Below, piece by piece: positions 3,383 through 61,922 of a DNA stretch of 64,000 nt (position 1 is the first letter of the stretch; each line of letters opens with the position of its first letter). The notes beneath the pieces were generated by a model, which saw only the letters and a list, made by a program, of their open reading frames with translations, did no database searches and was not told the DNA's origin. A program made the translations under genes and the position numbers. The DNA is from Halichondria panicea (taxonomy: Eukaryota; Porifera; Demospongiae; Suberitida; Halichondriidae), in the NCBI RefSeq assembly GCF_963675165.1, contig NC_087388.1, positions 5,985,651-6,049,650 of the forward strand. The letters run 5' to 3'.

Positions 3383-6300
3383 CTAAAGTTTTGTATATTC
3401 ACGTCGATTGGGGAACGCAACTGATCCCTCTGAGTCTTTTTTCAGTTTCGTACAGTACTTCAGTTTCTTACAGCAATTGTAGAAAAATGGCACTAAAAGC
3501 CACAGAAGAAATAATGTAATTAGTAGTAGCCACAAACCAAGCAAAAATAATAATGCCGTTGATGACAATATTGAATACGAATACTGGATTTCTGCTTTCC
3601 TTACTACATCACTGGCATTTCGTTTGGGAACAACTCCTACGATACAGAACTCTGGTGTGTCCACAAAACTATTGAAATTGTGATTACACTCTGTTGTAGT
3701 TGTGGATGTTATTGAGCAAAAGCTTGTGAAGGAGCTAGTTGAGTTTTCCTCATTCCAACCATTGATACGATAAGTTATGTTTCCCATGACATGTGAGTTG
3801 GCTTCAAAGTGAACGCCAAAAAAATAATAACTGTTTCCTGCAAGTATGATACTGATCGAGAAATTATTATTTTTGATGCAGTGCTCCATATAGGTGAACG
3901 TCCAAGATCCATTGAGCAAAAAGGATTCGTATTCGTCAACATTGTCATAAACTACCAAAACAACTGGGCATTCTGAGCTGTTATAGTCTGCTGATACTTG
4001 AATTTGCAACCTCAGAGAGGCGATATATTGTGTGTAGAGCTCATAAATTGGAGTATTTTCTTCTGGAGTGAGTATTCCTTCCTCGTGTATTGTGGTATTT
4101 TCTTTTCTGATATCATCACAATTGCTAATGTTGAAGTAAATTGGGATAATCTGAGTATTTGGGGTCTCAGTGAATGTTAGCTGCTTTACATTCGGTCTGA
4201 CTCGAGCTATAGGTAGTACTGACTGCTGGATCAGTTGAGTGATATGTACTGAACCATGATTGGATTCTTGGTGTATTGATATTATCGTGGAGGATAATGC
4301 AGAAGCAGTACACATTGCGAAGAAAATAATGATATAAAAGAAGAAGAACATGTTACATTTTCTCTTTAGTGTAGTCGGAATACAGCATCGACAAAGTATC
4401 TATAAAGAAAAAGGGATTTACATTAATGAGGTTATAATATCTCAAACACTGCTGCATGCAATAGCTACGTAATTACCTTGGACATCCAAACGTCACTGTG
4501 ATTGTTAACAAAGTCGAGGCATCTGACCTTTGTGGTATCCCGCTGCATGTGCAGTTTTAGAGATATCACCATCATTTTAGGATAGTACAGTACAAGTACA
4601 GTGTACAGTTTAGGTCATTGTCGCAATTCGATAGATCACAACAAAGAATCATAAAAAAATACCATGAACTGAGACTAATTAATTGTGGAAGAACCACGAA
4701 AATTTACTATAGCTACCTCATTACCTTATATTCTTGTTTTGAGTTTGAATCATTGGGTGGTGTGCAGAGTTCGTTTATGACTTCTGAACCTCGCAATAAG
4801 GTAGTAGATTGCAGCTGGAGAGACTTTGCAGGAGAACGAACATGCGGAGAACAAGGAGCCAAACTATTGTATGTGGGAGAAGGAATTATTGACAGTCTAG
4901 GATTTTTAATGCACTCTGATTCAGAAGAAGCTTTAGAATCTGTTGTCTCATCAATTGTAGTACACTGTTGATTTGGCTCTGAATTATCACTCCGAAGATT
5001 TCTTGATCGTATGGCACAGCCATGCCTTTCAGCCCGGCTTTGATCTGTGTATGCATGTGCACGAATATAATAATGTAACACAGTGTGTACACAGTAAAAA
5101 CACATTCATTACAGTAACATAAAACATCATGCACTCAAACTGTGAGTATGTATGTTGATCAATCTACATAACAAGCTGGCAATTAATAGCCTGAGCTTCT
5201 GGATCTCGGGGTGAGGTTGTAGCTGTTGAGTGGTGTTATTTGTGGGAGAACAAACAATAATGAGCAGCTAAATTCACTATTATTATAATCAAGAAGACCT
5301 TGCACAGGCAAAAATGAACAAATTAATATACTCATGGTTACCTGTGATGCTATCAGCCAAATTGATGAGCCCCACTGTAGGATTTTTGAGAGCGTCTGAC
5401 AGGAGACTCCATGTTACGTGTTGTGTACTCAGGAGTGTAGCCAACATTTCACGCAAGCATGACATATTAGATGTGTCGTGATGCTTCCTATTGATGTCGG
5501 TGAGAACATGATAAGATAGATCTAGAGCCAATCCCAGATCGAACCAGTGAGAGCTTGCACTTTCATGAAGTTGCTCAAAAACGTGCTGTAGATCGTTAAT
5601 TGTCAAAGCCTGTATAAAAGCAACAATCAACAGAGTTTCGTTTGGTGGGGAGGAGAAAATTACCCCTCTCGGAAATAATTCATAGAATAAAATTGAGTGA
5701 TACTGGTGACATTTCTTATATGTAAGTATCTACTGGGATGCATGCCACAAACCCTCTAGATACATGTATGTCACCCCCCTCTATACATAATTATTATGCA
5801 TCATTAGCCTCCCTTAATAAAACTAAAGGCAGCTAGGATGATAAAACTAATTACTGACTATATACCTTGTCCAGGTGAGAAGATTTATCCACTAATAGGA
5901 TGATGTCACTCTCAGGGATTTCTGGATTGAGTTGTTGGTCCCTCACTCCAGTCTTCTTACACACATCTTCCATTACTGTAACAGAGGACAATTCATCTGA
6001 AGAAAGTGTTAAGCACTAGATCAATGTTTCATTAAAATATTTGCGTAGAGTTTAGCCACAGTGCATGTCAATTTAGCTTCGCAGGAACTTCTGCATGGTT
6101 AAAACTTTTTACCTCTAAAGCATATTAAAGCATAATTATGGACAATACAAAAGTGCCTTTATTTTAAGGAATCCGTGTAAAGGTATACGAAGTATATTAT
6201 GAGGGCAAACTCAACGCAAATAGACCTTAAAATAACCTGTTAGAACTTCTCTACTACTATAGCATCATTCTTACACATGCTCCATTACATAATCCTATTA

Positions 6301-9300
6301 AAAAGTGATACAGCTTACCAGATGTAATGCGCTGATCATGAACATGACTTTGTACTTCCGTATTCAAGCACACATCTTCCATTACAGAATTACCTGAGGA
6401 AAAGCAGACACAGCAGTTACGCTCACGTAGTACGTTTGTCAAGTAACATGCTCACTCAAAGAAGGCTGTTGATCATGCATGGGTTTAGGTTTTTATAACC
6501 GTTTCTTGTGCATTACTATGAAGTGCGTGGGAGTCGGATATATATACTGATATTACATTGTATGCTATAAGTATACTTCATAGTGATAGTGTATGTAACC
6601 TACATGTTAAGCTGGTACTCAATGCTGATGAGGCACCTTCCACTGTAGATGCACTAGTCATTGAATTCCAACCGTCCTCTTGAGTGCTTGTGGATTCATC
6701 TGTGAGCACAATATACATGCATGCATGTGCGGTCAAAATCATTGACGTATGTTTTACCTGCACTGGGAGACATTGGCAATGTATCTGAGTCACTGCTTGT
6801 CCCATGTATGGGTTCGTCTGACTGAGAATCGTCGTGAGTGCTGATTATTGGAACGCTTATTATTGGAATGTTGGCAAATATTTCATCGCACTCGACCAAC
6901 ACTCTCAAAACTTCTTGATGTTGCTTTTGATCTGCAATGTCAAAGGCAGTTAACCCAACATTGTTTCTAGCGTTGGCATCACTGAGCTCAAGAAGATATT
7001 CCGCAGCTCCTCTGTTGTTGAATCGAGCAGCTATGTGAAGAGGTGTGTCTCCATCCTCATTCACAACTGAGACATTATGATGGTGTGTTTCGACCAATTG
7101 GGTGACTAAGAGTCCCCATTTTGACCAATCCCAGCGACAGGCAAGATGGAGGAGGGTCATTCCATCACTGTCCCTGATTGAACTGACATCAACTGTCGGA
7201 TCAAGCCCTATCAGTAAGGTTAAGGCAGAAGTCGGGTCACCACCATCTTGGCCAAACGCTTTTAGCAGTTTCTTTGTTGAATTATCTTCTGCCTGTAAAG
7301 TGTGCGTGTTAGAATAGAATACGGATACATTGTTTAGAAGTACAGCTAGCTGCATCAGAGTATAAAACAAGATACCTACCACTTTATACAAGTCTAACGT
7401 GAATATGATTATTACCTTCAATATTACTTGTTGACCAATTTTGACCTCAATGAATGCATTTTCTTTCAGGTGCTGCATCTGTTCAAGACTCAACTGGCCA
7501 TAAATATGCTTAAAATAAGCTGGAACTCGAAACACCAGCTCTGTACAGCCTTCTCGAACATTCTTCAAATTCAAAACTTGGTGTGGTATTATTTGTTCCC
7601 AGCATTTCATAAAAACTAGCTCCAATTTTTGAATTTGATCAAAAGTGATTGTTTGAAAGTCAACATCAATCTTACATGTTATCTCCACTGATTCAATGTG
7701 AGACGGTTGAGGGCCAAAGTCATCAACAAATAAGAAACATCGTCGATTAACATATTGCCGAAACAAATGCTCGTATCTCAGTAATGCTTGATCATTTTCA
7801 TATGGGAAAAGAAATTCTTCTCGCATTACGGAAATCAGTGAGTAATTGAACCAAGAGCAGAAATTATTCTGTAGGAAGACTGACAATTCGCTAAAGCTGG
7901 TAACATCACGGAACAGAATCTGTTCAGAAGGTCTACGATAAATTGGGTTGAAATACGATTCTTGTGGTGTTAAAAGCGCCTGGACGTACTGCTTCACTTT
8001 AGTGATGTCATATTGTTTTTCCAGATTCATAATCGTGTTTGTGAGTAAGCTACAAAACTTCGAATGAATGTGTCGTGTTTCATCACGTAGGGCTGTCATG
8101 AACATTTTATAAGAGATTTCTGTGGCTGATACTGTATCACTACAAGGAGTATCACGAGTGCATCTTTTAATTTGAGGTGGCTTGGAGCTTAAGCACTTAT
8201 CTCTGCCAGTGACATGACCCAAGATAGTACACTTTCCACAGTCACATTGGAAGCTAAAGAATTTAGAATCAGGTGCCGTGAGTGATGCAAATCCAGATAA
8301 GCTTGTACTGACGGATCTTGGTTGTAACTCTTCACCTGCCTGACCTTCGTTATCTGCTATAACGAGGTGACAATTTATTGGCTCACTATCATGCATGGTG
8401 TGGTACAAACTACTGGATCAGTATAAATTATCTGATATATTTATTGGCTCACTATAATTATTACGCATGTTGTATATAAATTATCTTATTCATCAGCCAT
8501 GACAAGCCCAAACGGCTGGGGAAGGGTTGTAGCAGGTTTATTGGATAGCTCTCATATCTTGTTAATCATGCAAAATCAGTGAATGCTTTGCACACACTTA
8601 AGTATATGCGACCCTTTTTACTCACGTGAAATGCAACCTTTACAAGCCTTATTAAAGTCAACCACTACCGTATAAATGTTCGCGGTTTTCGCGGATTGAG
8701 CCTCTACCGCGAAAATTTATACCCACAAAAATTTATATGAATAGTAGGCGTGTTCAGTATTATTGACCACACCTATCGACAATAAAAGGTGCCTCACCGT
8801 TATAGGCTAGGCCTGGATTCGAGGGTAACGGTGTGGAGGTACAGCTAGCTGCATGTTGATGTGCGCATGCGCCAAAAGGCTGGAACTCAGACCACGAAAA
8901 TAAAATCCGCAAAATCCTTTGTTATGGTCCATCCGCCAAAATTTATACCCTCGAAATATACCCGCTATACGGTATATACAGTGTGCACAGTGACATTGCT
9001 CTCCTGATTCTTTCTTTGATACATTTTTGCGGAAATGCCTTTAGAAAGGTTTTCGTGGATTTAATGTTCGTGAAATAGCAGCCTTTTGCAGCATGCATGC
9101 ATGCATGGGATATTAAGTTCGTGGTTATAACTGTTCGTGGTCCAGCTTAATCTGCAAAAACCACAAACATTTATACCCTCGAAATATACCCGCTATACGA
9201 TACATAGTGCAATACATGAGTTGAGTTTTCATAAAGCAATCTAGGATTTATATTTATACAACCTACCTCCTATTCTTTGAGTTTGATCGCACTGTTGATG

Positions 9301-9609
9301 TTGTCTCTGTAATGCATCAATGAGTTTTTGCACTGTAGCTTTCGTAAAACTACCAGCTTCTTCAAGAGCACTAACGAATGAATGAAAAACCAGTGGATTG
9401 TTTTTTATCTGGAGCAGCACAGATTCCATTATTCTTCGTGCTTTGTCACCAGCATCATGAGTGTCATTCCTAAGATAATCTCGATCGTTTGGTGCTAAGA
9501 TCTCAAAACGGAGTAAATGATCGCTGACATCTTTAGGAGACTGCTTGATGCAAGTAAGAAGGCTGCTGTGACAGTCCTTGATTGCTTTGTACTCTGCTGA
9601 CTCAGACAT
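3383..9609 (-). CDS. CARD-domain X-ankyrin-Death two-transmembrane receptor, intact
   Basis: Ten exons read in one phase: 9609-9267, 8353-7416, 7292-6758, 6699-6604, 6393-6319, 5996-5866, 5609-5342, 5044-4725, 4542-4477, 4399-3383; about 1262 aa. Order: CARD-like domain (residues 1-110, ATG in context of MSESAEYKA), domain X (115-427), ankyrin repeats (about 465-560, DGMTLLHLAC and DGDTPLHIAA), Ser/Thr linker, Death domain (about 707-795, LTINDLQHVFEQL to NPTVGLINLAD), acidic linker, transmembrane 1 (about 943-965), ectodomain with CPVVLVVYDNVDEY, SYYFFG and FCIVGVVP, transmembrane 2 (about 1204-1229) and a basic tail of about 33 residues. N-terminal half should be cytosolic, ectodomain outside. 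The intron 7415-7293 is a multiple of three without stops, so it could be retained. CARD and Death domains bind like domains in apoptotic and innate immune signalling; the ligand is unknown. Exon borders are inferred by eye. Confidence 0.8.
7416..8353 (-). other. Domain X: conserved module between CARD and ankyrin repeats
   Basis: About 312 residues in one exon. It opens with a Cys cluster (CDCGKC, then GHVTGRDKC), and the core carries FCSWFNYSLI, YVNRRCFLFVDDFGP, VEITCKIDVD, EGCTELVFRVPAYF and KENAFIEVKIG. Three other copies occur in the window (57767-56848 intact, 20920-19950 broken, 22505-22334 fragment). The pattern of an invariant WF-Y, an RR-F and an EGC-EL-F-VP motif recalls a domain I remember as common next to Death and ankyrin modules in invertebrate proteins; I cannot name a database family for it. 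The Cys cluster could bind zinc, but this is inference. Confidence 0.65.
8668..9206. repeat. Two decayed repeat copies in an intron
   Basis: The first intron of the large receptor holds two segments ending in nearly the same sequence: CCTCGAAATATACCCGCTAT occurs near 8950 and again near 9178. A related end (CCGTATAAATGTTCGCGG) lies at about 8670. This looks like tandem decayed MITEs. No open frame. Confidence 0.5.
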
Positions 9610-11163: not shown

Positions 11164-11591
11164 ATCTTTACCAAAAATGGACTAATTATTTATGCTAAAA
11201 TTGCATAATTTATCAGTATAGTCCTACTGTTGAGCGTAACGATGTAGCCGAGAAAATTGAAGACAAATATGTGAGGACATGCATGTACCGTAACTATGTA
11301 GTTGCTATGTAAGTCTATAGCGGATCAACAAATTAAAACAGTTATAACAGTTAGAACCACTGTGAAGAGTATTGGCATGTAACACAATGTGACATTTCCT
11401 TGTATAAATCATTGACTCACATGGCATGAAAATCTCTACATAATATAATAATTTGGAGTGCTCTGTTTGCCACCGCTGACATCATTAGGAAGTAGATGTA
11501 CACTTTGTACAAAAGGAGATACTATAGCAACAACACACAATTCATCGTTGTCCTCAGTCATAGTGATACTAGTAGATAGTGAAATGGTACA
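11164..11591. other. 3' flank of the Death receptor pseudogene
   Basis: The segment 11450-11591 is homologous on the minus strand to the ectodomain C-terminus of the copy at 8-300 (TMTEDNDELCVVAIV), but it lies after a premature stop. The rest is AT-rich noncoding sequence. Confidence 0.6.
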
Positions 11592-13169
11592 TTACTTGAT
11601 GTTATTGTCATAAAAAATGACAGTGCACCTACTTATGGATTTATCTGAAATCGCACGAATATTATACTGGTGAGAAATTCCAGAGATGCGTAGATTGATG
11701 GTAGTAGGTACAATAGTAGTACAGATCACCAGACCAGCGTATAAATAGGAGTTTTTATTGAGCACTATTTTTATAGACAGCTCGTCTCGATTAAAGCAAA
11801 AGTCAACGATAAAACCAGCTTGTATACCAGTTTTAAGAAACTCAGTATATATTTCCAGGTCATCATATATCACTAGAATAACCGGGCAATCACATGAGCT
11901 GGACACAATATCTTGAGATGGGGTAATTGAATATGTTAGACTGGACCCATCCAAATAATAGCCTTCGTCAACGTGTTGTATTGGTCTAGTTATGCTCAAG
12001 GAGATCGGTTTATTCACAGCAATACGGTCAACATCCAGTTCTTGACAATCATTGACTGTGAAGACAATGAGAAGTTCATGAGAAAACTGGATTTTTTCGA
12101 ATACAGTGAAAGTTATCGAGTCGTATGCATGCTCGATAAACGAGTTAACAAAGATTATATACCCTCCAGGCAGTTCGTATATGCTGTTTACAGTGATGTT
12201 TATTACAGGAAGGACTGTAGTCATGTTTGTTACAGCAATTGTAGGAAACACTAAAGAATCGTCAGGAACAGTAGTGGGCAGAGTTGACGTTGTCCATGGA
12301 TATTCAGAAACAGTAGTAGTTGGAGTTGATGTTGTCCATGGAGATTCAGAAACAGTAATGTATATGATGGGTGGAGGTGAAGTTGACGTATCAGAATGAG
12401 ATAGCTCTAGTTTGAGAACAGGCAGTAAGACTGCTAAGACCACCACTGTTAGTACCACAATGATGACCAATAAGATTATTATCGTCAACAGCCACGACCA
12501 TTTGCAACGCCTTGAATGCTGTTGAAAAAGTTGAATTAATAATACATTCAATGTAATGCTAGTTAAGGCTTACCGTTGTTACTAGAGACTGATCGCCAGT
12601 GCTGGATATTTCCCCATGATTGGTGTCAGTTTGGCTTGTGTGATCTGCATACATCAGTGCATGTTGTAAAGAAAAGTGTCTTAGAGTTAATATACCGTTG
12701 GTGGGCTCAACGGAGCTTCTCTGCTTCACTGAATTGATGCTGGTCATTTCCATTATGTCGCTATCAGACCCTTAATAGAGTATAATATAATGATTGTAAT
12801 TGCGAGCATGCAGGTATAGCACTAACCATTAGTTGCCAGCTGCAGTGAAAAGGAACTCTCTGTATTTCCGGTAGCTTTAGTAAGACGTCTTTCGACCACC
12901 TTAGCGAGATCACTGTGCCCAACACTAGAGCGTGAGAGAGCCTTAAATACGTCTGTTCAGTTTCTCTCTTCACCTTTTAGCCACTCTGATAGACCCTCAA
13001 GATAGCAGTTATCAGGATCTTCACGACATCTTATATTGATAGTTTCAATAGTAGTATTATTAACTTGCAGAGCTAACAACATCTGCTTCCATTTGGCTCT
13101 AGCTTGATATGTTGCTTCATAGACTGCACTAAGATCATCTAAACTTATTGAGAGTTTGGAGTCGGCCAT
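11592..13169 (-). pseudogene. Death-domain two-transmembrane receptor with two nonsense codons
   Basis: Exons: 13169-12827 (Death domain, ATG at 13169), 12770-12696, 12644-12574 and 12518-11592. The Death domain reads LSISLDDLSAVYEATYQARA to LEGLSEWLKGEER. The linker, transmembrane segment and ectodomain are about 90 percent alike with the copy at 8-1979. Two point lesions: a Trp codon TGG in the paralogue is TGA here (just after GEERN, near 12957), and CAA is TAA at 11594-11592 in the ectodomain, removing the last 60 or so residues including the C-terminal hydrophobic segment. Splice sites and phases are otherwise good, including the cag/cattcaagg acceptor. A shortened stalk repeat (SEYPWTTSTLPTT) is duplicated relative to the paralogue. 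The reading frame is otherwise preserved, so the damage looks recent, or reflects assembly or allelic error. Confidence 0.75.
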
Positions 13170-13289
13170 AACAGCTAATGTTTGAGTTACAAAAGGTTTA
13201 CTGTTTCTCACATAGTTTTTTTGGAATGATTGTGGTTGGCTCACTGTACACAAAGCATGTACACAAAAGGGTATCAGGTACAACACCAA

Positions 13290-13850
13290 TTAAGGCACAA
13301 CCAGTATATATACAGTGGCCCAGATGGTCATCTGCCACTGCTATGGCCACCACCAATTGTACACTATGGCAACCCCTTATTTCCTGGCGGTACCAGTCAG
13401 GTGTTGACATCAATCAAGTTAACGCTGTATACTTTACTTTGTCTTACTTGCCATGCAGGGAATGTTCTGAAGCCTGCTAAGGTAGTCATACTTTTAAATA
13501 AATAAATCTAGTTAATGTACTACTGCTACATAATATGTATCCAATCACTTATTGCATAAGATAGCGTGGGAGTCAGCACACGCGGGGGGTGGGGTTATTT
13601 ATTTTATGTACCGGTATTATGTATTATAGTCTATAGATAAGCAAAACAGTTCGTGAAACCACTTATATAAGAGTATTAATCATGAGGATATTGGATATAT
13701 AACTTGAAGTTGTTGCTAAGTCACTGACTCACATTGTTAAAAGCAAATCGCTAAAAGTTATACGTACAACTATAGTATAATTATGAGCTATATCCAATTA
13801 TAACTATTAATTAAACTGTACATTATTGCGGGTACCAAAACAAAGAAATT
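13290..13850. other. Intergenic between two Death receptor copies
   Basis: No supported gene. The overlapping open frames at 13178-13505 on the plus strand and 13413-13198 on the minus strand lack any family signature. Confidence 0.4.
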
Positions 13851-13859
13851 AGCAGTGCA

Positions 13860-16108
13860 CTGTTTACCATTGTTAGGGGGAGTACAAGTAGGAGCAAGAG
13901 GAGATAGTCTCAGAGATACCAGAGCAACAACACACAGTTCATTATTTTCCTGGTACACATTAGAGAGTGAATTTTAAGTACATGTGTTGATGTAGTGTTG
14001 GATAACGGTGCACCTGCTCAAGGATTTCTCCGCAATCGCAAGGATATTATATTTCCAGAGATACGTAGATTGATGGTAGCAGGTACAATAGTGGTACAGA
14101 TCACCAGACCAGCGTATAAATAGGAGTTTTTATCAACAATTATTTTTGTAGACAGCTCGTCTCGATTGAAGCAAAAGTCAAAGATAAAACCAGTTTGTAT
14201 ACCAGTTTTCTGATTCAGAAACTCGGTATATATTTCCAGGTAATCATATATCATATCACTATAGTAACTGGGCAATCACATGAGCTGGACACAATATCTT
14301 GAGACGGGGTAATAGAATATGTTAGACTGGACCCATCCAAATAATAACCTTCGTCAACATGTTGTATTGGTCCAGTCACATCAAATTATTCACTAATGTA
14401 TGGTCAACATCTAATTTTTGACAATCGTTGATCGTGAAGTCAATGAAAGCCCCTCGAGGAAGCCAGCTCCCTTCGAATATAGATAAAATTAAGGAATCAA
14501 AGGTATGTTTGGTCAACGAAGATTGCTGACACTTTAGGCAGTTGATATATGCTGTTTAAATTGATGGGTATAGGTCTGATGCAGGATTAATTAGAGTTGT
14601 GCCACCTGCTACGGTGACGTCTATTGTATAGCTGTAGGAAATGTGCTCTCTGAACTAATTGTCCATGGGTATTCAGAAAAAGTAGTGGGCGGAGTTGCTG
14701 TTGGCAATATAATTATATGGGTGGAGGTGAAGTTGACGTATCAGAATGAGATAGTTCTAGTTTGAGAACAGGCAGTAAGACTGCTAAGACCACCACTGTT
14801 AGTACCACAATGACAACCAATAAGATTATTATCGTCAACAGCCACGACCATTTGCAACACCTTGAATGCTGATGAAGAAAGGGAATTTCGCATTCACACG
14901 AAAATGTATAGCTCAGTCAATTGGCTGTCCTGCATGCACAGCCACATGAGAGTAACTTACCATTGTCACCAGATATTGATTCTCAATGCTGGTGTGCATG
15001 CATGTCAGCTTGTTTTCATGATCTGCGATAATAATAGAGTTAACTTATGTTTTTTGAGAGTTAACTTACTTGTATATGTGATATCAAGCTGACTTCTCTG
15101 ATCCACCTCACTGATGTTGGTCATTTCCATTATGCCGCTATCAGATCCTGAGATATAATTGCATGCAGGTATATATAATACTAGCCTCGATTCAAGGCCG
15201 ATTAAAATACGGCCTGGTACCTATTGCAGGGGTGATAGTGCGCATGCGCTTCAAATTACCCAGAATATGGGTAATCGTACCACGAACGTAAAACCTTAGT
15301 AAATTATACCGGAAATTAATCCGTTTACTAAAATATGTTCCGTAATACTTTATCTCTATGACTGAGTTCTGTGAAGCTGTGGCTTATGCGGTCTATAGCG
15401 TTGGTCTAGAAGGCTTGAACACTAGTTTTAAGACAAAAGATGCTCTCATTTACGTCTAGGACTGTCCTATAGCCGGGTTGTCTTCGCGAGTAGCAGTTTG
15501 AGGCACCATACACTTCCCATAGCCTGTACAGATCCATGGTAAGACATCCTGACCATACAACCGTCATAGAGGTAGATGAGAGCCTCTCCTGGCTTCAGAC
15601 TAGTGTGAAAGCCTTCTGGAACAACGCAATAGAGAGCTAAGCTGATGTTTACAAAGATAGAAAATAGATGAGGGAAGAAAAAGGGGAAAAACTAACGCAT
15701 GCGCACTATCACCCCTGCAATATGTACCAGGCCGTATTTTAATTGGCCTGGAATCGAGGCTAATATAATACATGCATCCATGGACTAACCATTAATAGCC
15801 AGTGAAGATGAAATCAGTCTGTACTCTGTATTTCCGGTAGCTTTAGTACGACGTCTTTCGACCACCTTAGCGAGATCATTGTGCCCAACACTAGAGCGTG
15901 AGAGAGCCTCAAACACGTACTGTCCAGCTTCTCTCGCAACCTTTTAACCACTCTGATAGACCCTCAAGATAGCAGTTATCAGGATCTTCACGACATCTAT
16001 ATATTGATAGTTTCAAATAGTAGCATTGTTAACTTGCAGAGCTAAGAACATCTGCTTCCATTTGGCTCTAGCTTGAAATGTTGCTTCATAGACTGCACGA
16101 AGATTATT
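13860..16108 (-). pseudogene. Third Death receptor copy, heavily decayed
   Basis: Minus-strand relics in the same order as the copy at 11592-13169: Death domain pieces at 16108-15825, first linker exon at about 15148-15085, second linker at about 15020-14960, transmembrane exon from 14864 with the same I/V/L-rich segment, and ectodomain pieces to about 13870 (DLEIYTEFL and SYLYAGLVIC readable at 14275-14018). Small insertions and deletions shift the frame repeatedly, including an added NQ in TEFLNQKTG and lost segments of the ectodomain. A Mutator-like element is inserted between the Death and linker exons at 15182-15762. Clearly non-functional. Confidence 0.75.
15182..15762. mobile_element. 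Mutator-like MITE with long inverted ends
   Basis: 581 bases. The two ends (15182-15248 and 15696-15762) are inverted copies of about 67 bases with roughly three mismatches, starting TAGCCTCGATTC. Flanks carry a perfect 9-base duplication ATATAATAC at 15173-15181 and 15763-15771. Long terminal inverted repeats plus a 9-base target duplication are the hallmark of Mutator-like elements. No transposase frame inside, so non-autonomous. Its insertion splits the Death receptor pseudogene. Confidence 0.8.
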
Positions 16109-36990: not shown

Positions 36991-37000
36991 TCTTGTGCAG

Positions 37001-45477: not shown

Positions 45478-45639
45478 TCTATGTTTTAGATCTAGATCTA
45501 TCTACATGCAGTCATGCATGCAGGAAGTGAAATAATTAATATGTGTAATTGAGAGGTGTGTGCTTAGCCTTTGTCTTTGGTCAGATATATGAAAGGGAGT
45601 GGTTTCCAGTCTATAGATCTATTTACTGGCATATGCATC

Positions 45640-50554: not shown

Positions 50555-53500
50555 ATGTGTGAATCAGCTGAGTACAAAGCATTCAAGGACTGTCACAGCA
50601 GTCTTCTTACTTGTATTAAGCAGTCCCCTAAAGATGTCTGTGATCATTTACTCCCTTTCGAGATCCTAGCACCGGATGATCGCGATTATCTTAGGAATGA
50701 CACTCATGATGCTGGTGACAAAGCCCGACGAATACTTGATGCTGTGCTACTTCAGATAAAAAATGATCCACAGGTTTTCCATTCATTCGTTAGTGCTCTT
50801 GAAGCAGCTGGTGGCTTTACGAAGGCTGGTGTACAAGAACTCAAGGATGCATTACAGAGACAACATCAGCAGTGCGATCAAAGTCAAAGAATGGAAGAGA
50901 ACCGTGAGTTGTAATGCCCCCCAAAAAACCCAACTCATGGTCCATTTGATTGCCATGTGATATTAGCCAGTACATGCATGGATGACATCGTAGATATTGA
51001 GTTACATCATGTAGGACCAGCTGCAGGAAGTTATGTGGCCAATTATGGCTTCATATGCTTTATGTGGTTGCATAACTTTTACCTGGTTGAAGTTTAATAT
51101 CGCCTCTAAAGCATAACTTTTAATAGTACTTAACAACATTATTATGGAGGCCTAACTCAACTCATGGTTCTAAAATCTTTGCAGGCTATGAGAACAGTCC
51201 AATGAGCCTACTACAGCCATTACCCGAGTTAGCTGTGACTGAAGAAGCTGGGTCAGGTATTATAACTATCTCAAACCAAGTGTTAGAGTCCATTCTTTTC
51301 TTCTTGTGTAGTTTTTGAGTTACCTACCATGGACGATGGAGATGGAGGAACACTACCTGATCCATTAGAGCACCCTCCTGATGACACTGAAGTGGGAGCG
51401 GACCTCAGAGCAGCTGCAACAAGTCGACAAGTAGCACCCACTGGTATGTGATACATTTAATATGATTATAACAATTATGACTGACTGATGTATTATTATA
51501 CAGCTGATTCATTTGGAGGACGATTGCTACAAACTTTCCAAAGTGGAGAAATTGAACAAGTCATTGAGCTTTTATCCCAGGCTAAAAGTCAGTCCATTGA
51601 TCTGAGAGGTGTGTCTGATGCAGACGGCAAAACTCTCCTTCATCTTGTTTGTCGCAAAAACTGGGTGGACTGGTACCACATTGTGAGTAGCCTTGTCGAA
51701 AATCACTATTGTGATGTTGCAGCAGTGGATGAAGATGGGAACACACCCCTTCATGAGGCATATCAATGTGGCAATCTCCCATCCGTAGAGTACCTACTTA
51801 GTCTACCGAGTTGTAATCCTGACGCAATCAACAAGTACGAGTACACTGTACTGAGAATGGCCCTTGAGAAAAATGACAAACAAACTGTGGCACAACTTCT
51901 AGCAACAGGACGAGTTGATCCTAGAAAAGGTAGCTCATGCGGTCATACATACTCAGAATTGCTTGCAATGAATCAGCTCCAACCACAACCACAAGATTAC
52001 GATGGCTCAGCTCTTCAAATGGTGATCCAGTTTGCAGAATGCATGGAGGGTAACAATCACGTTCGCCAACCGTTCACTTCTTATTGCTTGCATAAAATGC
52101 TTCACAAGATATTGAAGAATCGTAATCAAGTTACAATTACTAGAATAGTAGACCGCATTAAAGAAAACATGTTACCTCTTCCAAAAGAACCTGATAAGAT
52201 TCATAATTTGATTATTGATATTCAAAGCCTGTCAGACGAGTTTGACATACGTGGGGAGCCCACTAATGTTGTGGATATTCAAATAAGAAAGAAAGGTAAG
52301 TGAGTAGCTAATTATACGTGTTAAGTGTCATTACTCCACAGAAGGTAGAGAAATCTTTCAACGTGATATTCAACAAGAGAGCATAAACACAACTCAGAAT
52401 GTTACTGTTCCAGCTGATGTTGAAGATCAGGAAACATCCGACTACTCTAATGCAAGTGATGTACTACCAAATGTTCAACATTCATAATTATACTGAGATA
52501 TTTTATATCGTAAGAAAGGTGCATGTACGGTTATTACTTGATGCAGGAGAGTATGGGAAATACCCTAGGGCTTCAGAATTTCGTAATTCTAGCAGATAAT
52601 GAAGAACAGGAAATACCTGACTACTACTCTAATGCAAGCGATGAACTACCGATGTTGCAACCTTCACATACAGAGGTACACTGTACTGCATGTAATGCAT
52701 GATACTTTAGAAAAGGAATTAATGCAAGAATTAATTCATATAAAATTATGCTATAATTATAATAGCTACATTATGTAGTTTTTTTATGACACAATAATTT
52801 ATGTTCTTCTTTGATCTTAAACAGGAGCAGAATACAACACAAAATGATGAGTGTTGCGAAAATACATATATAGTATGTGTATGCAGTTGCTGTTGTTGTT
52901 TTATTGTCTCTTTAATTCTTGGAATATGCGGTGCAGTATTGTACGATGGCTATTCACTTGTTGGTACTACTGATGTGGTACAAATTCACCGGCAATCCAT
53001 TCCACTAATCGCAATACAGGATCCATCGACTAACTTCGTTAGGCTCTCAGAAATAATTACTAGTGGAACAGACTTAGTTACCATTATCTTCTATAAGTTA
53101 AGCGATTGTTCTTCTTCAACTGCCTTTATAGGCGTCGAGATCAATGAGATAATGACTGTAAACTTTGGCTCTCCAACTATCAAGAGCAAGCCTGTTACTG
53201 AGTTATATCTGGTAGGAAACACTACACTTACTGTAGATATCACCACCAATGTGCCCTCAACAAATTCTTTTACGGCTCTCGTTGTTTTTGACAATCTTAG
53301 AAACTACTTAAATTTCATTTCAAGCTCTTCGTTGGACAATTACTATTTTATGGATTTCATTGCTAACGGAAAATCACAAACTAAGATCAGTTTAATTTTC
53401 AACAAAACATCGTACTACTATATTGGTTTGTACACAGACATTCCGACTGAAGTTACTACTTTTACTGTACACTTTCGTGGGAGAATTCTTCAATATGACA

Positions 53501-53802
53501 TTACAAAAGGAAACACTTTCTGCTTTATAAGCTCTCTTGATGATTTAAGTTGTGAATTTTCTCCGAATTCCAACCAGCAAACTTGTATTGTTGGTTCTGT
53601 GCCACCTATATATACTGATACACCATTTGGAATAAGAAGAGCAACTGTAGAGTATTCCACTGCTCTCAACTCAGATACAGCAACCAACACTTTATTTTTT
53701 ATTCCTTTAATGTTATCTTGTTTATGGGTTTGTTTTCTGAGCTGTTTTCTATGGGTTTATGGTAGTTTACCACCTCAGCAGCATCAGGCAGCACACAACT
53801 AA
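50555..53802 (+). CDS. CARD-ankyrin two-transmembrane receptor, intact
   Basis: Seven exons in one phase: 50555-50903, 51185-51256, 51312-51443, 51504-52295, 52342-52460, 52577-52675, 52825-53802; about 846 aa. Order: CARD-like domain (1-105, MCESAEYKAFKDCHSSLLTC), acidic linker, three ankyrin repeats (about 215-320: DGKTLLHLVC, DGNTPLHEAYQCGNLPSVEY, YTVLRMALEKND), a conserved helical segment (FTSYCLHKMLHKILKN to IQSLSDEFDIRG), two stalk exons with a repeated ADxExQExxDYxSNAS motif, a Cys-rich transmembrane 1 (about 536-562), an ectodomain with FTALVVFDNLRNYL, SYYYIGLYTD and TCIVGSVPP, transmembrane 2 and a short tail. It is the template by which the broken copies at 2030, 27563 and 37001 can be read. 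An ATG at 52801 lies just before the last acceptor and could allow a start that skips the cytosolic part. Confidence 0.82.
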
Positions 53803-54430: not shown

Positions 54431-57400
54431 CTAAATTTGTGACTCGAATGAATTTGAATTCCGAAAGCTACGATGTCGCTTGGGACTGATTTGAAGTGAG
54501 TTTGTTGTGAACTTGGTGTTGGTTTTTATTTTGTACAAGACTAGAAAGACTAGCACTAATAACCACAGAAGAAGGATTAGAGATAAACTTATCAAGAGTA
54601 AAATTATCAGTTCTTCTGTATATAGGAAGTTCGAGTACGAATACAGTATTTCCACTTCCCTTACTCCATTGTTAAAATTGCGTTTTAGCACAATTCCTAT
54701 GATACACAACTCCGGTGTTACAGGAATGTGTCTATCAAATACGACATTACATACTGTTGTGGATGATATCATAGAGCAAAGGCTTGTAAAAGAATTTTTT
54801 GAATTTTCCTTATTCCAGCCATTAATACGATATGATATGCTGTTGATGACGTTCAAATTTTCTTCTATGTGGACTCTAATAAAATAATAACTACTCTTTT
54901 GGAGCGAGATGCTTATTGAGAAATTATCGTTCTTGATGCAGTACTCCATATAGGTAAACATCCAGGTTCCATTGTTCAAAAATGATTTATATTCATCAAC
55001 ATTGTCAAAAACTACCAAAACAACCGGGCATTCTGAGCTGTTATAGTCCGCTGATAAGTGAATTTGTAGCCTCAGAGAGACGTTATATTCTGTGTAGAGC
55101 TCATAAACCCAATTGCTGATGTTGAAGTGAATTGAGATGTTAGTATTAGTGATCTCGTTAATTGTTAGTTGCTTTACATTCGGTCCGACTCGAGCTATAG
55201 GTAGTATTGATTGCTGGATAAGTTGAGTGATATGTACTAAACCACCAAAAGGTTTTGATTCTTGGTCGTTGAGTATCGTGAAGGAGAGTGCACAAGCAAA
55301 AATTACCATTGTGAATAACACACTCATAACAAAGCACAAACATTTAGAAGCTGTTTTCCTCTCACTGATATTCAGAGTATGTCATTGACATATCTGTATA
55401 GGTTCAAATGTGATACGTTATAAGTTATACACCAGACACTGCATGCAATAGCCATTAGCTCTTGTATTCACCTTGAAGCAAACATGACAGAGGCAGCTGG
55501 CCTTCATGGTATCCCACTGCAATAACAGTTTTAATTATAGAGATACCACAATAACAGTTTTAAGATACCACTAGAATTAATTTAGCTAATAGTAGATCAA
55601 GCAAGCATAGACTATAGTAAGATTATAGCTATAGTTAGCAATCACAGCAAGGTGTCTAACAAATCAACGACCAGTGGTCTTATAACTACAATACACATAA
55701 TAAATGCTACTTCTTACCTGATGTTTTCGTTTTGAATTTATAAGGCCATCCAAGTCTGAATCGTTGGGTTGTGTGTGGAGATCGGGAATGGAACCTCGGG
55801 GTATAGATTGCCGTTGAAGAGAAGTCTTTGCTGGAGAACGAGGTGGATTGTATGTGGGAGGATTTTTTTCAGGAATTGTAGGATTTTTAATGCACTCTGA
55901 AGCTTTAGAATTTTTTGTCTGATCAATTGAAGTATACTGTTGATCTGGCTCTGAATCATCACTCCGAAGATTTCTTGATCGTATGGTATGGCCATACCTT
56001 TCAGCCCGGCTTTGATCTGTGTATGCATGTGCATGCAATTATTATATCACAGTGTGTATAATGAGCTGTGAGTATGTATGTCAACCTACGTGGTAAACTG
56101 ACACTGATTGCTGGTGAGGTACGTTCCACTGTTGATACACCAGTCGTTGAATTGCAACTGTCCTCTTCAGTACTTGTGGATTCATCTGTAAGCATAATAT
56201 ACATGCATGAATGCATGTGCAGTCAAAATCATTTTACCTGCACTTAGAGCCATTGGCAATGCATCTGTCAGTGAGTTAATGCTTGTCCTGTGAATATCCT
56301 CTAAAATTCCCCATTGGAATGTTGGCAAATATTTCATCGCACTCGACCAGCACTCTCAAAACGTTTTGATGTTGCTTTTGATGTGCAATGTTAAAGGCAG
56401 TTAATCCATCGTTATTTCTAGCGTTGACATCACTGAGCTCAAGAAGATATTCGGCAGCTCCTTCATTGTTGAATCGAGCAGCTATGTGAAGAGGTGTGTC
56501 TCCATCTTCATTCACAACTGAGACTTTATGGTGGTGTGTTTCGACCAATTGGGTGACTAAGAGTCCCCAGTTTGACCAGTCCCAGCGACAGGCAAGATGG
56601 AGGAGGGTCATTCCATTATTGTCCCTGATTGAACTCACATCAACTGTCGGATCAAACCCTATCAGTGAGGCTAAGGCAGAAGTCGGGTCACCACCATCTT
56701 GGCTAAACGCTTTTAGCAGCTTCTTTGTTGAATTACTTTCTGCCTGTAAAGTGTACGTGTTAGAATACGAACACATTGTTTAGCTAGCTGTATAGGGTAC
56801 AAACACCATGCAATTTAGTACGAGTCTAACATGAATATAGTTATCACCTTCAGTAATACTTGTTGACCAATTTTGACCTCAATGAATGCATTTTCTTTCA
56901 GGTGCTGCATCTGTTTAGGACTCAATTGGCTGTATAAATGACTAAAACATGCTGGAACTCGGAACACCAGCTCTGTACAGCCTTCTCGAACATGCTTCAA
57001 ATTAAGAACTTGGTGTGGTAGTTCTTGTTCCCAGCATTCTATAAATACTAACTTCAATTCTTGAATTTGATCGTAGGTGATTGTATGAAAATCAACATCA
57101 ACCTTACATGTTATCTCCACTGATTCAATGTGAGACGGTTCAGGGCCAAAGTCATCAACAAATAGAAAACATCGTCGATTAACATATTGCTGAAACAAAC
57201 GCTCATATTTGTGTAATGCTTCATTATCCTCATATGGGAAAAGATTTTCTTTTCGTATTTCGGATATTAGTGAGTAATTGAACCAAGAGCAGAAATTATT
57301 CTGTAGAAACTCAATTAAATCATTAAAGCTGATAGCATCACAGAGCAAAATCTGTTCAGAAGGGCTACGATAAATTTGGCTAAAATATGAACCTTGTGGT

Positions 57401-58383
57401 GTTAACAACTTCTGAACGTATTGCGTGAGATCATATTGTTCTTGTTTTTCAAGATTTATAATCGTGTTTGTAAGTAAGCTACAAAATTTCGAATGGATTT
57501 TGCGAGTTTCTTTATTTAGGGCTTTCATGAAGAAGCTTACAGAAATTTCTGTCGGTGATACTGTATCACTACAAGCAGTATCACGAGTGCATCTTTTAAT
57601 TTGAGGTGGCTTGGAGCTTAAACACTTATCTCTGCCAGTGACATGACCCAAGATGGTACACTCTCCACAGCCGCATTGGAAGTTAAAAAATGTCAGATGA
57701 TCAGAAGTCGTGAGTGATCCAGTTCCAGATGAGCTTGTACTGGCAGATCTTGGTATTAACTCTCCACCTGCTTAAGCGAACATTTATTGGAGGCACATGT
57801 AATTAAATCTCACTCCAAGATAATTATGTACAATGGTATAACTTTATATTATTATAGTTGCATTTATAGCAACAATCCTCTGTAGTTCTACTGGAACTTC
57901 AGTTTCTGCATGCAATTGCAATACAAGTGTGTTTTTGGCTTACGGTATACGCATGCACATTTTATAGCATAAACTACTGGTTACAGCTACTGCATGGATC
58001 ACACACACATATACATATATACCTGCTGAGTTTGCTTCATCAACTGTCTGATGTCTGTCTGTTACAGCTTCTAACTCCTTGTACTTATCTGTAAGTACTG
58101 AGAGAAGCTCGTCATCATGTCGCTCATTCCTTTCCCGAAGTATTGTAATGAATTTATCGTAAGTTCCCGGAAAACTTTTTACTTTTGCCTGCAATACAAC
58201 CACTAGCATCCTGGCTTTATCCGTATTCGTCTTGTCAAGCTGAATGATTTTCTGATTTGTTTCGTCTGATATCAGATGGTTTTGAAACATAACTCCAGCG
58301 AGTCCTCCTGGATCTGAAGCAAAGTCAGCAACTAGCTGCTCGTTGCAGCTCACTAATACATCGTAACCAATATTTGTTGTCAT
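54431..58383 (-). CDS. CARD-domain X-ankyrin two-transmembrane receptor, possible frameshift
   Basis: Exons: 58383-58023 (CARD-like; TTNIGYDVLVSCNEQLVADF), 57767-56848 (domain X), 56743-56238 (ankyrin; DNNGMTLLHLACRWDW, DGDTPLHIAARFNN), 56185-56090, 56016-55718, 55516-55472, 55364-54431 (transmembrane 1, ectodomain with CPVVLVVFDNVDEY and LCIIGIVLKR, transmembrane 2, basic tail). It matches the gene at 9609-3383 but has the other CARD subtype and no Death domain. The ankyrin exon is 506 bases; the paralogue's phase would need 3n+1. A deletion between IFANIP and the linker makes the frame stop at 56278-56276. As read, the protein is a soluble CARD-X-ankyrin of about 580 aa; with a one-base assembly error it would be a full receptor. 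The ectodomain exon stays fully open, which argues against an old lesion. Confidence 0.65.
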
Positions 58384-59190: not shown

Positions 59191-59192
59191 AA

Positions 59193-59560: not shown

Positions 59561-59669
59561 TCTATAAAAATGGTACAAATCCTACATGTACAAATAATTT
59601 TGAAGCAACTCCATTCGTTTTTTCTTGAGTTAATTTTATATCAATGTCAGTTCTATATACTCACGTTAA

Positions 59670-61922
59670 TTACATGACACGAACTCTATTGCTACTTTTT
59701 AGCTTCTTAATGTATAAGATTGCCACGGGCACTAAAAGCAACAGAACAAATACTGTAATCAGTAGTATCAGTAGTAGCCACAAAGCAAATGATGAGAATA
59801 TTGAATACGAATACTGGATTTCTGATTTCCTTACTACATCACTAGTGTTTCGTTTGGGAACAACTCCTATGATACACAATTCTGGTCTGTTCACAAAACT
59901 GTCGAAGTTGTGATTGCACTCTGTTATAGTTGTTATTGAGCAAAGGCTTGTAAACGAGCTAGTTGAGTATTCCTCATTCCGACCATTGATACGATATGTT
60001 ATGTTGCTCATGACATGTGAGTTGGCTTTAAAATGGACGCCAAAAAAATAATAACTATTTTCTGCAAGCATGATACCGATCGGGTAATTATCATTTTTAA
60101 TGCAGTACTCCATATAGGTGAACATCCAAGATCCATTGTGCAAAAAGGATTTGTATTCATCGACATTGTCAAAAACTACCAAAACAACTGGGCATTCCGA
60201 GCTTTTATAGTCTGCTGCTACTTGAATTTGCAACCTCAGAGAAACGTTATATGGTGCATAGAGCTCATAAATTGGAGTATTTTCTTCTGGAGTGAGTATT
60301 CCTTCCTCGTATATTGTGGTATTTTCTTTTCTGATATCATCACAATTGTTGATGTTGAAGTGAATTGAGATGTTAGTATTAGTGATCTCATTGATTGCTA
60401 GCTGCTTTACATTCGGTCCGACTCGAGCTATAGGTAGTACTGATTGCTGGATCAGTTGAGTGATATGTACTGAACCATCAAAACTTTCTGATTCTTGGTC
60501 TATGAGTATTGTGGTGAAGATTGTTGTAACAGCAAAAATGAGTGTGAAGATAGTAATCATATAAAAGAAAAACAATTTATTATATTTTCTCCTCTCCTTG
60601 CTAGTAAAAAATGAGCGACGTGGAGTTGGATGATTCTTATCGAATGATGGATGGATTGTAGTCGGAGTGCAGCATCGACACAGTATCTATATAATAGTAT
60701 AGTCCAATGAAAGGGAATGTACATTATTATAAATGAGGTTAGCCTCAGACACTGCATGCGTGCAATAGCTATAATTATGTAATTACCTTGGACATCCAAA
60801 CGTCACTGTGGTTGTTAACAAAGTCGAGGCATCTGGCCTTTATGGTATCCTGCTGCATGTACAGTTAATAGAGTATCACCAGTATTATTATACTGGCTAC
60901 TAAAGTTTAGATCATAATTATTTGTCACACATCAGTTGTGCAATTAATTGTGGGAGAACCGCAAACATTTATCTACTACATCTTACCTGCTTTGAATCAG
61001 TAATTATAAGACCATCCTTATCAGAGTTTGAATCATTGAATTGTGTGCGGAGTTCATTTATGACTTCTGAACCTCGCGGCAAGGTAGTAGAGTTCTTTAC
61101 AGGAGAACAAACATGTGGAGGATCCTTTCTAGGATTTGTAATGTACTCGGAATCTGTTGTCTCATCAATAATTATTGGTTGACTTGACTCTGAATCATCA
61201 CCCCGAACATTTCTTGATCGTATGGTACGGCCATGCAGTTTAGCCCGGCTTTGATCTGCATGCATGCACGAATATACATTATCAAGGGCATATAAAAGAA
61301 GAGAGGGCAGCAATAGCGAAACAGCGTGGGCGGATGAATGTGCACTATAGATAGTGAGCTGCTCTCTTATAATTATACGCCTTTGGTATTATACCAGTGA
61401 GCATATCAACCTACATAATAAGCTGGAATTGGGAGCATCCACTGTAGATGCATCAGTTGTTGAATTTCCACCATCTTTTTGAGTACTGGTGGATTCATCT
61501 GCGAGCACGATGTTATACATGCATGCATGCATGTGCGGTCAAAATCATTGAGGAATGTTTTACCTACACTTGGTGACATTGCATCTGTTATCCTGTGTAT
61601 GTGTTCATCTGACTGAGAAATTAGACAAACGTTGATTGTTGGAATGTTGGCAAATATTTCATCGCACTCGACCAGCACTCTCAACACTTCTTGATGTTGC
61701 TTTTGATATGCAATGTCAAAGGCAGTTAATCCAACGTTATTTCTAGCGTTGACATCACTGATCATGAGCTTAAGAAGATATTCGGCAGCTCCTTCGTTGT
61801 TGAATCGAGCAGCTATGTGAAGAGGTGTGTCTCCATCTTCATTCACAACTGAGATATTATGATGGTGTGTTTCGACCAATTGGGTGACTAAGAGTCCCCA
61901 CTTTGACCAGTCCCAGCGACAG
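59670..61922 (-). pseudogene. Ankyrin two-transmembrane receptor, 5' truncated
   Basis: Exons: 61922-61564 (ankyrin, starting in mid-repeat at CCRWDWSKWGLLVTQ), 61498-61415 (linker), 61255-60987 (linker), 60852-60787 (22 codons, DTIKARCLDFVNNHSDVWMS), 60686-59670 (transmembrane 1, ectodomain with CPVVLVVFDNVDEY, SYYFFG and LCIIGVVPKR, transmembrane 2, short basic tail). All phases fit those of the gene at 9609-3383, and no stop interrupts them. The 5' break falls inside the first ankyrin repeat where the paralogue continues HLACRWDW; here a TTTTTACAG sequence precedes it, usable as an acceptor. No CARD, domain X or start was found up to 64000. The last exon has a 23-residue insertion relative to the paralogue before transmembrane 1. 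It may survive as part of a chimeric gene with exons beyond the window. Confidence 0.65.

Follow-up and report, generated by a model that had tools for sequence, protein, structure and literature searches.

In the genome of the sponge Halichondria panicea, about 50 related gene copies, some of them broken, form a cluster in which death-fold modules are joined to a membrane cassette. We favour, at a probability of roughly 60%, the reading that the modules belong to single genes encoding two-pass membrane proteins, in which a putative outward-facing ectodomain is coupled to cytosolic CARD or Death signalling. The predicted proteins start with an N-terminal CARD or Death domain, optionally followed by a TRADD-N-like domain X and/or ankyrin repeats, and continue with a linker, a first transmembrane segment (TM), the ectodomain and a second TM.

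Genome searches placed 48 copies of the TM-ectodomain-TM cassette in one 305-kb cluster on contig C12, which includes the window (the whole 64,000-nucleotide stretch analysed here), and a divergent singleton on contig C6; a further divergent relative, adjoining the cluster, escaped those searches. The ten cassettes that a preliminary description had counted in the window were recovered, with ectodomains on the minus strand at 11-1099, 3446-4366, 11439-12518, 14054-14868, 39244-39830, 54515-55363 and 59673-60596, and on the plus strand at 18039-18941, 37766-38681 and 52849-53799. The frame is open through the cassette in six of them, including the one at 54515-55363, which carries an internal in-frame deletion, and stops or frame changes break four of the ten ectodomains. 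Similarity of the best cassette pairs (E 1.1e-146 within the window, 8e-219 genome-wide) is far beyond chance. Between the cassettes lie CARD-like, Death-like, X and ankyrin modules, and several of the window copies are pseudogenes. The family grows by tandem and block duplication within the cluster.

Splice models were built with a simple in-house model in which module matches received a bonus. Within the window, cassettes are preceded by eight different cytosolic arrangements, in agreement with the at least six described earlier. Models without an internal break have the arrangements CARD-X-ankyrin(-Death), CARD-X-ankyrin, CARD-ankyrin and CARD alone; each of the others includes at least one broken exon. 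Window genes have an ATG at or near the start of the N-terminal CARD or Death exon.

Gene A (3386..9609, minus strand) gives a model with module matches and no internal stop, comprising CARD (9267-9609), X (about 7380-8353), ankyrin (6758-7292), linker (4725-5044) and TM-ectodomain-TM (3386-4399) exons. An internal Death exon is possible (frame 5292-5729, domain from 5609), but its inclusion is uncertain because the acceptor at 5609 is good (score 6.7) and no in-frame donor scores above 0.8. The final exon of the model (3250-3275) is probably spurious, since the frame stops right after 3386. Gene B (54434..58383, minus strand) consists of CARD (58023-58383), X (56848-57767), ankyrin (56343-56743), linker (55718-56016) and TM-ectodomain-TM (54434-55350) exons; its model reads through the natural stop that follows 54434 and is otherwise open. 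Gene C (50555..53799, plus strand) is an 860-aa model without a stop, with a CARD exon (50555-50903), two short phase 1-1 exons, an ankyrin and helical region (51504-52295), linker exons (52342-52675) and TM-ectodomain-TM (52825-53799), and its paralogue at C12:5871866-5875139 has an identical exon layout. Gene D (16477..18962, plus strand) lacks X and ankyrin; its 517-aa model, also without a stop, joins CARD (16477-16807) through short exons to TM-ectodomain-TM (17933-18962), and two close relatives yield 509-aa models of the same kind.

The remaining cassettes belong to damaged or partial genes. Gene E (35399..38693, plus strand) has a Death exon (35399-35712; DeathD, a Death domain by transitive match), the C-terminal part of an ankyrin region (36989-37285), a linker and an ectodomain split between two frames (37766-38681). 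Gene F (11..2063, minus strand) retains a CARD remnant (1671-1976), part of a Death module (1427-1651) and TM-ectodomain-TM (11-1099). Two minus-strand pseudogenes follow, Gene G (11439..13184), with in-frame stops in both the Death exon and the ectodomain, and Gene H (13812..16108), with Death pieces and an ectodomain in five pieces. Gene I (39184..40766, minus strand) is broken, with a CARD (40446-40766) and a divergent ectodomain in two frames, and in Gene J (59673..61927, minus strand) an ankyrin piece (61640-61927), a linker (61002-61259) and an open TM-ectodomain-TM (59673-60596) are present, the 5' part being missing or unmodelled. Loci without an ectodomain comprise a broken CARD-X-ankyrin gene (19743..21521, minus strand) whose X copy has 12 internal stops, a CARD and ankyrin in shifted frames (27563..28857, plus strand) with a duplicate 108.9 kb away at C12:5904343, and two lone CARD exons (45172-45468 on the minus and 45640-45951 on the plus strand, region 45172..45951).

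The proposed single-chain architecture stands on several lines of evidence. Of 32 cassettes in the DNA retrieved, 30 are immediately preceded by CARD/Death, X or ankyrin exons in the same orientation. Among 20 models, 16 have phase 1 at the end of the first death-fold exon and 15 have phase 0 on entry into the ectodomain exon. The singleton on contig C6, whose ectodomain is 29% identical to the query from the window, belongs to a gene ordered Death-X-ankyrin-linker-TM-ectodomain-TM, and its intron phases (phase 1 following the death fold and the ankyrin region, phase 0 following X and ahead of the ectodomain) are those of the X-bearing genes in the cluster. Because this gene keeps the module order with matching phases, the cytosolic modules and the cassette very probably form single genes. 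At a neighbouring locus (C12:5852212-5853714) X, TM, a lumenal stretch and a second TM are even fused in one uninterrupted 501-aa frame, which contains no methionine from X to the first TM. A methionine within 40 residues ahead of the first TM is present in only 6 of the 20 cassettes that have two predicted TMs (26 examined). That cytosolic and membrane genes are separate neighbours is extremely improbable; it could be entertained inasmuch as the splice sites derive from the in-house model and genomic sequence only, but we reject it because strand and order are shared, phases are conserved, the C6 copy is unlinked and one locus shows the fusion in a single frame.

Within the cassette, the first TM can act as a signal anchor and is followed by an ectodomain of 225-306 residues with conserved cysteines, the second TM and a tail that is short or, in two copies of the ECTOm2 subfamily, absent, so that these end with the second TM. 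Across 20 copies, mean net charge is +1.35 before and -0.75 after the first TM, and +0.05 before and +1.35 after the second. The suggested topology, with both termini inside and the ectodomain outside, is thus upheld as a mean charge bias, the charge ahead of the first TM being negative in 7 of the 20. N-glycosylation sequons number 96 over 18 ectodomains, versus 62 +/- 7 in shuffles. No enrichment occurs in X, in ankyrins or in the ECTOm2 subfamily (7 versus 10 expected from shuffles); CARDA, which should be cytosolic, is enriched (16 versus 8, about one site per copy).

The fold of the ectodomain was not captured by AlphaFold (mean pLDDT 42), sequence comparison with the PDB (best E 0.04, an unrelated enzyme) or Pfam. 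Searched against Pfam, 18 ectodomains matched no TNFR family at E<=1. Bacterial and viral contigs gave no relatives in scans that detect close relatives only, with a single protein of one subfamily as query. One of the 18 ectodomains matches the middle domain of APD1-4 proteins below threshold (E 8.6e-4, 19.9 bits against a cut-off of 25). Plant APD1-4 proteins have the order TM-lumen-TM-RING, and proteins of this type (PF16040/PF16041) share the TM-ectodomain-TM layout. Homology, however, would rest on that one member and is not significant in profile-profile comparison (hhalign, E 0.048, probability 1.1%), and the APD1-4 copies on contigs C8 and C17 of this genome lack a death fold in the exons read. 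An HMM run with --max against these loci scored no higher than 14.6 bits among the matches listed. The APD1-4 link is kept as a lead only.

These data bear on whether the proteins might instead be endomembrane sensors or adaptors, with the cassette facing the lumen of an internal compartment at which death-fold signalling begins. A two-TM hairpin leaves the membrane unspecified, and both the tailless ECTOm2 copies and the single APD1-4 match would suit such a location, but the APD link fails in profile-profile comparison. None of the features analysed speaks directly against an internal membrane; we regard such a site as unlikely.

The assignment of the cytosolic modules as CARD, Death, ankyrin and X held in part. 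CARD matches PF00619 at E<=0.01 in 11 of 16 members (best 1.3e-5), and that at window:9244-9696 attains the curated cut-off (23.9 bits), but none of the 10 Death-like window modules in alignment A9 (seven DeathC, one DeathE, two DeathD) matches Pfam Death (PF00531) directly at E<=1. DeathD and DeathE qualify as Death domains only transitively, each through a 46% relative that is overlapped by a Pfam-positive match (C11:2563664 and C14:4989966, respectively); DeathC is without such support. DeathE also has relatives of 74-78% identity on contigs C10 and C13, and a 36% relative lies in the same 1663-aa frame as a NACHT. On contig C12 itself NACHT is absent, as had been proposed, among the matches listed (0 of 102 scored, from 265 candidates genome-wide).

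Domain X probably represents a TRADD-N-type module, a reading drawn from the literature and from two weak matches in distant relatives. Two of eight such relatives match the same part of PF20694 (TRADD-like_N) below cut-off (E 0.023 and 0.0066), one of them also matching an unrelated family (E 0.0013), and none of the eight members of alignment A8 does so. The PF13820 profile found no match in this genome, nor in any control genome, and the PDB gave nothing better than E 0.63 in this comparison. Cluster members of X have no convincing Pfam or PDB match, and the AlphaFold model is poor (mean pLDDT 35). A Roc-GTPase context was found among relatives of X.

Nearly identical gene bodies bear different N-terminal CARD exons, joined via a phase-1 intron. 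Gene B and its paralogue at C12:5875700-5880700 are 89-95% identical in DNA from the X exon onward, while the CARD exon is unmatched, with the breakpoint in the intron preceding X. Selection on the ectodomain is mostly purifying; median dN/dS is 0.17-0.60 across module groups and 0.40-0.60 for ectodomains, computed among intact copies, a choice that favours values below 1. Pervasive positive selection on the ectodomain, as expected for a recognition locus, was not found: no pair exceeds 1, and only local windows do so. The broken ectodomains and the several death-fold/ankyrin genes without a cassette could suggest a decaying multigene family of no present function, but among intact copies dN/dS stays under 1 for every module group, and the window contains four gene models that are open, which makes this very unlikely.

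Death receptors of the TNF-receptor type are type I proteins with one TM, Cys-rich TNFR repeats and a Death domain C-terminal to the TM. They likewise combine an ectodomain and a death-fold domain in one chain, but here there are two TMs, the death fold is N-terminal and no TNFR repeats were matched. The Hydractinia Alr and Botryllus fuhc loci resemble the present one in that membrane proteins (here predicted) are encoded at one locus, clustered or single; their domains are different.

Closer parallels exist for the cytosolic half. TRADD-N death-fold proteins have 1-3 Death-like domains ahead of an RRM-like TRADD-N and a variable C-terminus, most commonly ankyrin, and in Amphimedon the NCOA6 clade has undergone a lineage-specific expansion of Death/TRADD-N/ankyrin proteins of many architectures (Kaur et al. 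2021, PMC8195603). Provided that X is TRADD-N, the layout of 1-3 Death-like domains, X and ankyrin recurs here in the X-bearing genes only; many cassettes have no X. The Amphimedon proteins thus share the Death-like N-terminus, the TRADD-N(-like) middle, the ankyrins behind it and the large expansion, but here the cassette follows the ankyrins in one clustered locus, and the available text of PMC8195603 does not mention a TM-ectodomain-TM unit in Amphimedon. About 50 receptor-like DED-TRADD-N proteins of Crassostrea virginica, with an N-terminal ectodomain and one TM before DED-TRADD-N (same source, in the part available), also unite a cysteine-bearing extracellular domain (here predicted), a death fold and TRADD-N(-like) module in one chain; their orientation is the opposite, since the proteins predicted here begin with the death fold and carry the ectodomain towards the C-terminus, flanked by two TMs. 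Sponge NLRs share the N-terminal CARD or Death, and, in the accessible part of the source, some are clustered and some have TM segments and are putatively membrane-bound (PMC12909245); they differ in their NACHT. The claim of an undescribed family therefore needs narrowing on the cytosolic side, given these resemblances, and holds for the cassette behind the ankyrins. That position, the clustering of the cassette and the attachment of differing CARD exons to genes that are otherwise 89-95% identical are new here. No description of the whole architecture was found in a literature search by title and abstract start, with most subscription journals outside its scope.

We infer a receptor function from sequence features. 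The ectodomain would face outside and bind a ligand on a microbial, symbiont or neighbouring-cell surface; its clustering would draw the cytosolic CARD or Death domains together, and these might seed signalling of the adaptor/caspase or NF-kB type, in which X and the ankyrins would serve as switch and scaffold. Exchange of the death fold would re-route the same sensor into another pathway.

Sponges reject non-self tissue and host a dense microbiota; no locus at which clustered surface receptors themselves carry death-fold signalling is known to be established in these animals. A search for silicatein in the present genome gave 30 cathepsin-family matches; the three inspected all have a cysteine at the active site, and the one compared further lies nearest to enzymes of the cathepsin L type, with silicatein ranking lower. 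One duplicated, pseudogene-bearing cluster of surface-like proteins with cell-death domains could point specifically to a self/non-self (allorecognition) system, but the ectodomains lack pervasive diversifying selection and receptors for pathogens or symbionts would look alike, so this narrower role is improbable. Rather doubtful, too, is the conjecture of a sponge histocompatibility or immune locus of some 50 two-pass surface sensors, whose sensor and death-fold halves are recombined via the common phase-1 intron and which would turn non-self recognition into cell death, requiring neither a NACHT nor a kinase nor a separate adaptor.

If the favoured reading of two-pass receptors is true, membrane sensing and CARD/Death signalling would be united in a single chain whose orientation differs from that of the death receptors of vertebrates and the TRADD-N receptors of oysters, and exchange of death-fold exons at a phase-1 intron would provide a concrete route by which a sensor could be re-wired to a different death pathway. 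The cluster would then be a defined locus for studies of polymorphism and rejection, and the family looks like a surface-recognition system that may be wired directly to cell-death signalling.

Within the window (C12:5985651-6049650, in an assembly of 131 Mb and 39 contigs), related ORFs form groups of ectodomain exons, of CARD-like (two types), Death-like (three) and ankyrin modules (two), and of a domain X, 280 aa long. The preliminary description had claimed ten copies of the TM-ectodomain-TM cassette and at least six cytosolic architectures; ten ectodomain places were indeed counted, and eight arrangements lie ahead of a cassette, broken copies included. The cassette frame is open in six of the ten places (one with an in-frame deletion) and broken in four. 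Four splice models are open to the cassette end, although two of them have a spurious final piece that lies past the natural stop codon: CARD-X-ANK-(Death)-linker-cassette (Gene A, 3386-9609, minus strand), CARD-X-ANK-linker-cassette (Gene B, 54434-58383, minus), CARD-ANK-linker-cassette (50555-53799, plus) and CARD-cassette (16477-18962, plus). The Death exon of Gene A has a strong acceptor at 5609 (score 6.7) and no in-frame donor above 0.8, so its splicing-in is uncertain and the exon may be skipped.

A DYSNASE-like tyrosine motif (YxN), noticed by eye, recurs in short linker exons (e.g., 52342-52675 and 37285-37569) and could be a candidate docking site for SH2 proteins. A fragment at 26243-26569 (plus strand) resembles the C-terminus of a tyrosine recombinase (Phage_integrase, E 6.7e-6, just under the cut-off) and is likely a mobile-element remnant. 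The 332-aa ORF at 43204-44199 (minus strand) has no Pfam match; its Cys-containing stretch SCPRGGFPS-RHNEIRDLTA reappears in similar form in L034, a locus outside the window, and the ORF is perhaps a repeated retroelement ORF.

The whole genome was searched with three ectodomain queries, each a single protein of one subfamily. Merged matches occupy 48 places within 305 kb of C12 (5874201-6179452), 19 on the plus and 29 on the minus strand, and a single place outside this cluster, on contig C6. The figure of 48 is a lower bound, since divergent copies escape subfamily queries: a further copy at C12:5835550-5836374, preceded on the same strand by CARD-like and X exons, was missed by all three (21.4 bits versus 5.7 for the next frame, with a composition bias equal in size to the score). 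Block duplication is seen between 27.5-45.9 kb of the window and C12:5904343-5921442, with a module-by-module spacing of 108.7-110.2 kb. Elsewhere on the same contig, C12:1.04-2.08 Mb holds over 20 giant ankyrin ORFs, each in a single frame and the largest of 4555 aa, together with about 30 Pfam Death matches, and is a second large ankyrin/Death cluster.

The cytosolic and membrane parts might be thought to belong to separate, neighbouring genes. Linkage was read in 234 kb of the cluster region including the window (5,000 positions being N) and in 20 kb around the C6 copy, a set of 32 cassettes outside which 17 of the 48 cluster places lie. A cytosolic module stands directly upstream on the same strand in 30 of the 32 (within 2.6 kb, with no opposite-strand module between). 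Of the two exceptions, one is a pseudogene in five pieces that has a further cassette as its nearest neighbour, and the other has its ankyrin exon 3.7 kb upstream, past the 2.6-kb limit. Of 20 simple splice models, 16 end the first death-fold exon in phase 1 and 15 enter the ectodomain exon in phase 0; the models favour module matches and give no reward to phase, and the copies are related, so that the counts are non-independent. The C6 ectodomain shares 29% identity with the window query, and its gene has the order Death, X, ankyrin, linker, cassette, with phase 1 after the death fold, 0 after X, 1 after the ankyrins and 0 before the ectodomain (the model begins at the frame start, the ATG not being fixed, and includes small extra exons). 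As modelled, the C6 copy is an independent case for the single-gene architecture. In addition, 20 kb ahead of the cluster, one 501-aa frame at C12:5852212-5853714 runs from X through a TM segment (308-326) and a short lumenal stretch into further hydrophobic stretches; a CARD-like exon precedes it (L050:2120-4214 covers both), and Met is absent between residues 261 and 479. This predicted protein shows that fusion of X to a membrane part occurs, but with a different, short ectodomain, for which no relation to the main ectodomain was found by profile. Because of the strand and order counts, the exon phases, the C6 copy and this single-frame fusion, separate genes are very unlikely.

The identity of the cytosolic modules is supported to differing degrees. 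The CARD profile PF00619 is matched by 11 of 16 CARD members at E<=0.01. None of the 10 Death-like members has a direct Pfam Death match. DeathE has relatives on C10 and C13 that are 74-78% identical (among the best 150 scored), a 46% relative overlapping the Pfam-positive Death match C14:4989966, and a 36% relative that shares a 1663-aa frame with a NACHT domain; at least 102 NACHT matches were scored in the genome. A 46% relative of DeathD overlaps the Pfam-positive match C11:2563664, and for DeathC the sole pointers are its position and, in the C6 copy, a DeathE match of 20.8 bits. First-look candidates genome-wide number about 500 each for DeathE and for the Death profile PF00531. Such numbers of NACHT and Death-type genes suit a sponge-like animal, and a sponge is the probable source.

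Domain X has 54 matches genome-wide. At all four examined loci with an X relative outside the cluster (L038-L041), X is followed by a long GTPase-type exon that contains a P-loop stretch; in L038, the one of these exons scanned, Roc is over and COR-A below the cut-off. A weak kinase-like match also lies immediately behind X in L038. The Death-like exons scanned at the four loci gave no Pfam match (0/4) and one is matched by the profile of our Death-like alignment; three of the four stretches have Pfam-positive Death matches (C10:1202758, C1:3101101, C6:731163) at most about 3 kb further downstream. By eye, the last 100 aa of X show the pattern beta-alpha-beta-beta-alpha-beta, and in this part two of eight distant relatives matched TRADD-like_N below threshold (E 0.0066 and 0.023); since an unrelated family came up at 0.0013 in the same scan, these E-values are weak by themselves. 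A genome search with the TRADD-N-related profile PF13820 gave no match, and none in control genomes either. In Amphimedon, 357 proteins of the NCOA6 clade of TRADD-N are described (Kaur et al. 2021, PMC8195603); most of their architectures begin with Death-like domains, and ankyrin repeats are one of the most frequent C-terminal parts. Based on this architecture and the two sub-threshold matches, X is probably a TRADD-N-type module.

The ectodomain alignment has 12 invariant columns, four of them cysteine. Among the Pfam matches listed for 18 ectodomains no family exceeded its cut-off, and no convincing PDB match was found by sequence; structure prediction, which the preliminary description had proposed, gave a poor model (AlphaFold, mean pLDDT 42, from eight window sequences). 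On these comparisons the ectodomain appears to have no known domain. One member matches the middle domain of APD1-4, known from plant TM-lumen-TM proteins, below the cut-off; the profile-profile comparison is not significant. True APD1-4-type TM-ectodomain-TM exons are found on C8 (5.48-5.61 Mb) and C17 (1.90-1.92 Mb), with 12 APD1-4_M matches over the cut-off (loci L028-L037); several on C8 have glycine-rich N-termini, and no RING was seen in the C8 and C17 exons read.

At least two TMs are predicted in 20 of 26 cassettes examined. In these 20, net charge averages +1.35 on the N-terminal side of the first TM (negative there in 7 of the 20) and -0.75 on its C-terminal side, with +0.05 and +1.35 on the corresponding sides of the last TM, a bias from which an N-in, ectodomain-out, C-in topology is predicted. 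Sequons in 18 trimmed ectodomains number 96 versus 62 +/- 7 expected (0/500 shuffles as high), with enrichment in the subfamilies ECTOm1 (0/300 shuffles as high) and ECTOp (6/300) and none found in the subfamily ECTOm2 (274/300). The same shuffle test found no enrichment in X, both ankyrin types or CARDB; CARDA is enriched (16 versus 8 expected, about one extra site per copy).

Gene B and a paralogue at C12:5875700-5880700 have 89-95% DNA identity, including the introns behind X, over the part that begins roughly with the X exon and runs to the end of the gene; upstream of X the two share no match, one carrying CARDB and the other CARDA (15% identical to each other). Gene A and the same paralogue are 97.9% identical over the CARD exon with its 5' flank and 87% identical over the X-ANK part that follows; at a point where the paralogue shows 35 bases, Gene A contains a 1.5-kb segment with a Death exon of NLR type, which reflects insertion in one copy or loss in the other. 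N-terminal death-fold exons have thus been swapped, with the breakpoint in the intron ahead of X. Median dN/dS (NG86) is 0.17-0.60 in ten module sets (those of CARDB and CARDB2 overlap for the most part), and a single pair, in DeathC, exceeds 1; the use of intact copies alone biases these values downwards. Local pN/pS exceeds 1 in ECTOp (1.65 and 1.13, alignment columns 256-300) and in the three copies of ECTOm2 (1.12, 1.03 and 1.17). Diversifying selection on the ectodomain is seen in such local windows alone.

The family had been called undescribed. This holds for a TM-ectodomain-TM cassette behind ankyrins, of which no description was found in the available portion of PMC8195603 or in titles and abstract openings of the literature searched, but less so for the cytosolic half, which resembles the Death-like/TRADD-N/ankyrin type known from Amphimedon (PMC8195603). 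In C. virginica, proteins are described that combine an extracellular domain with TM, DED and TRADD-N (Kaur et al. 2021, PMC8195603), and sponge NLRs bearing TM segments have been reported (PMC12909245). Given these precedents, the receptor-like family extends a known kind and is not categorically new. Most likely, a ligand or contact would cluster the ectodomains and bring the N-terminal CARD or Death domains together under the membrane, where they would seed a death-fold assembly, with X and the ankyrins serving as switch and scaffold.
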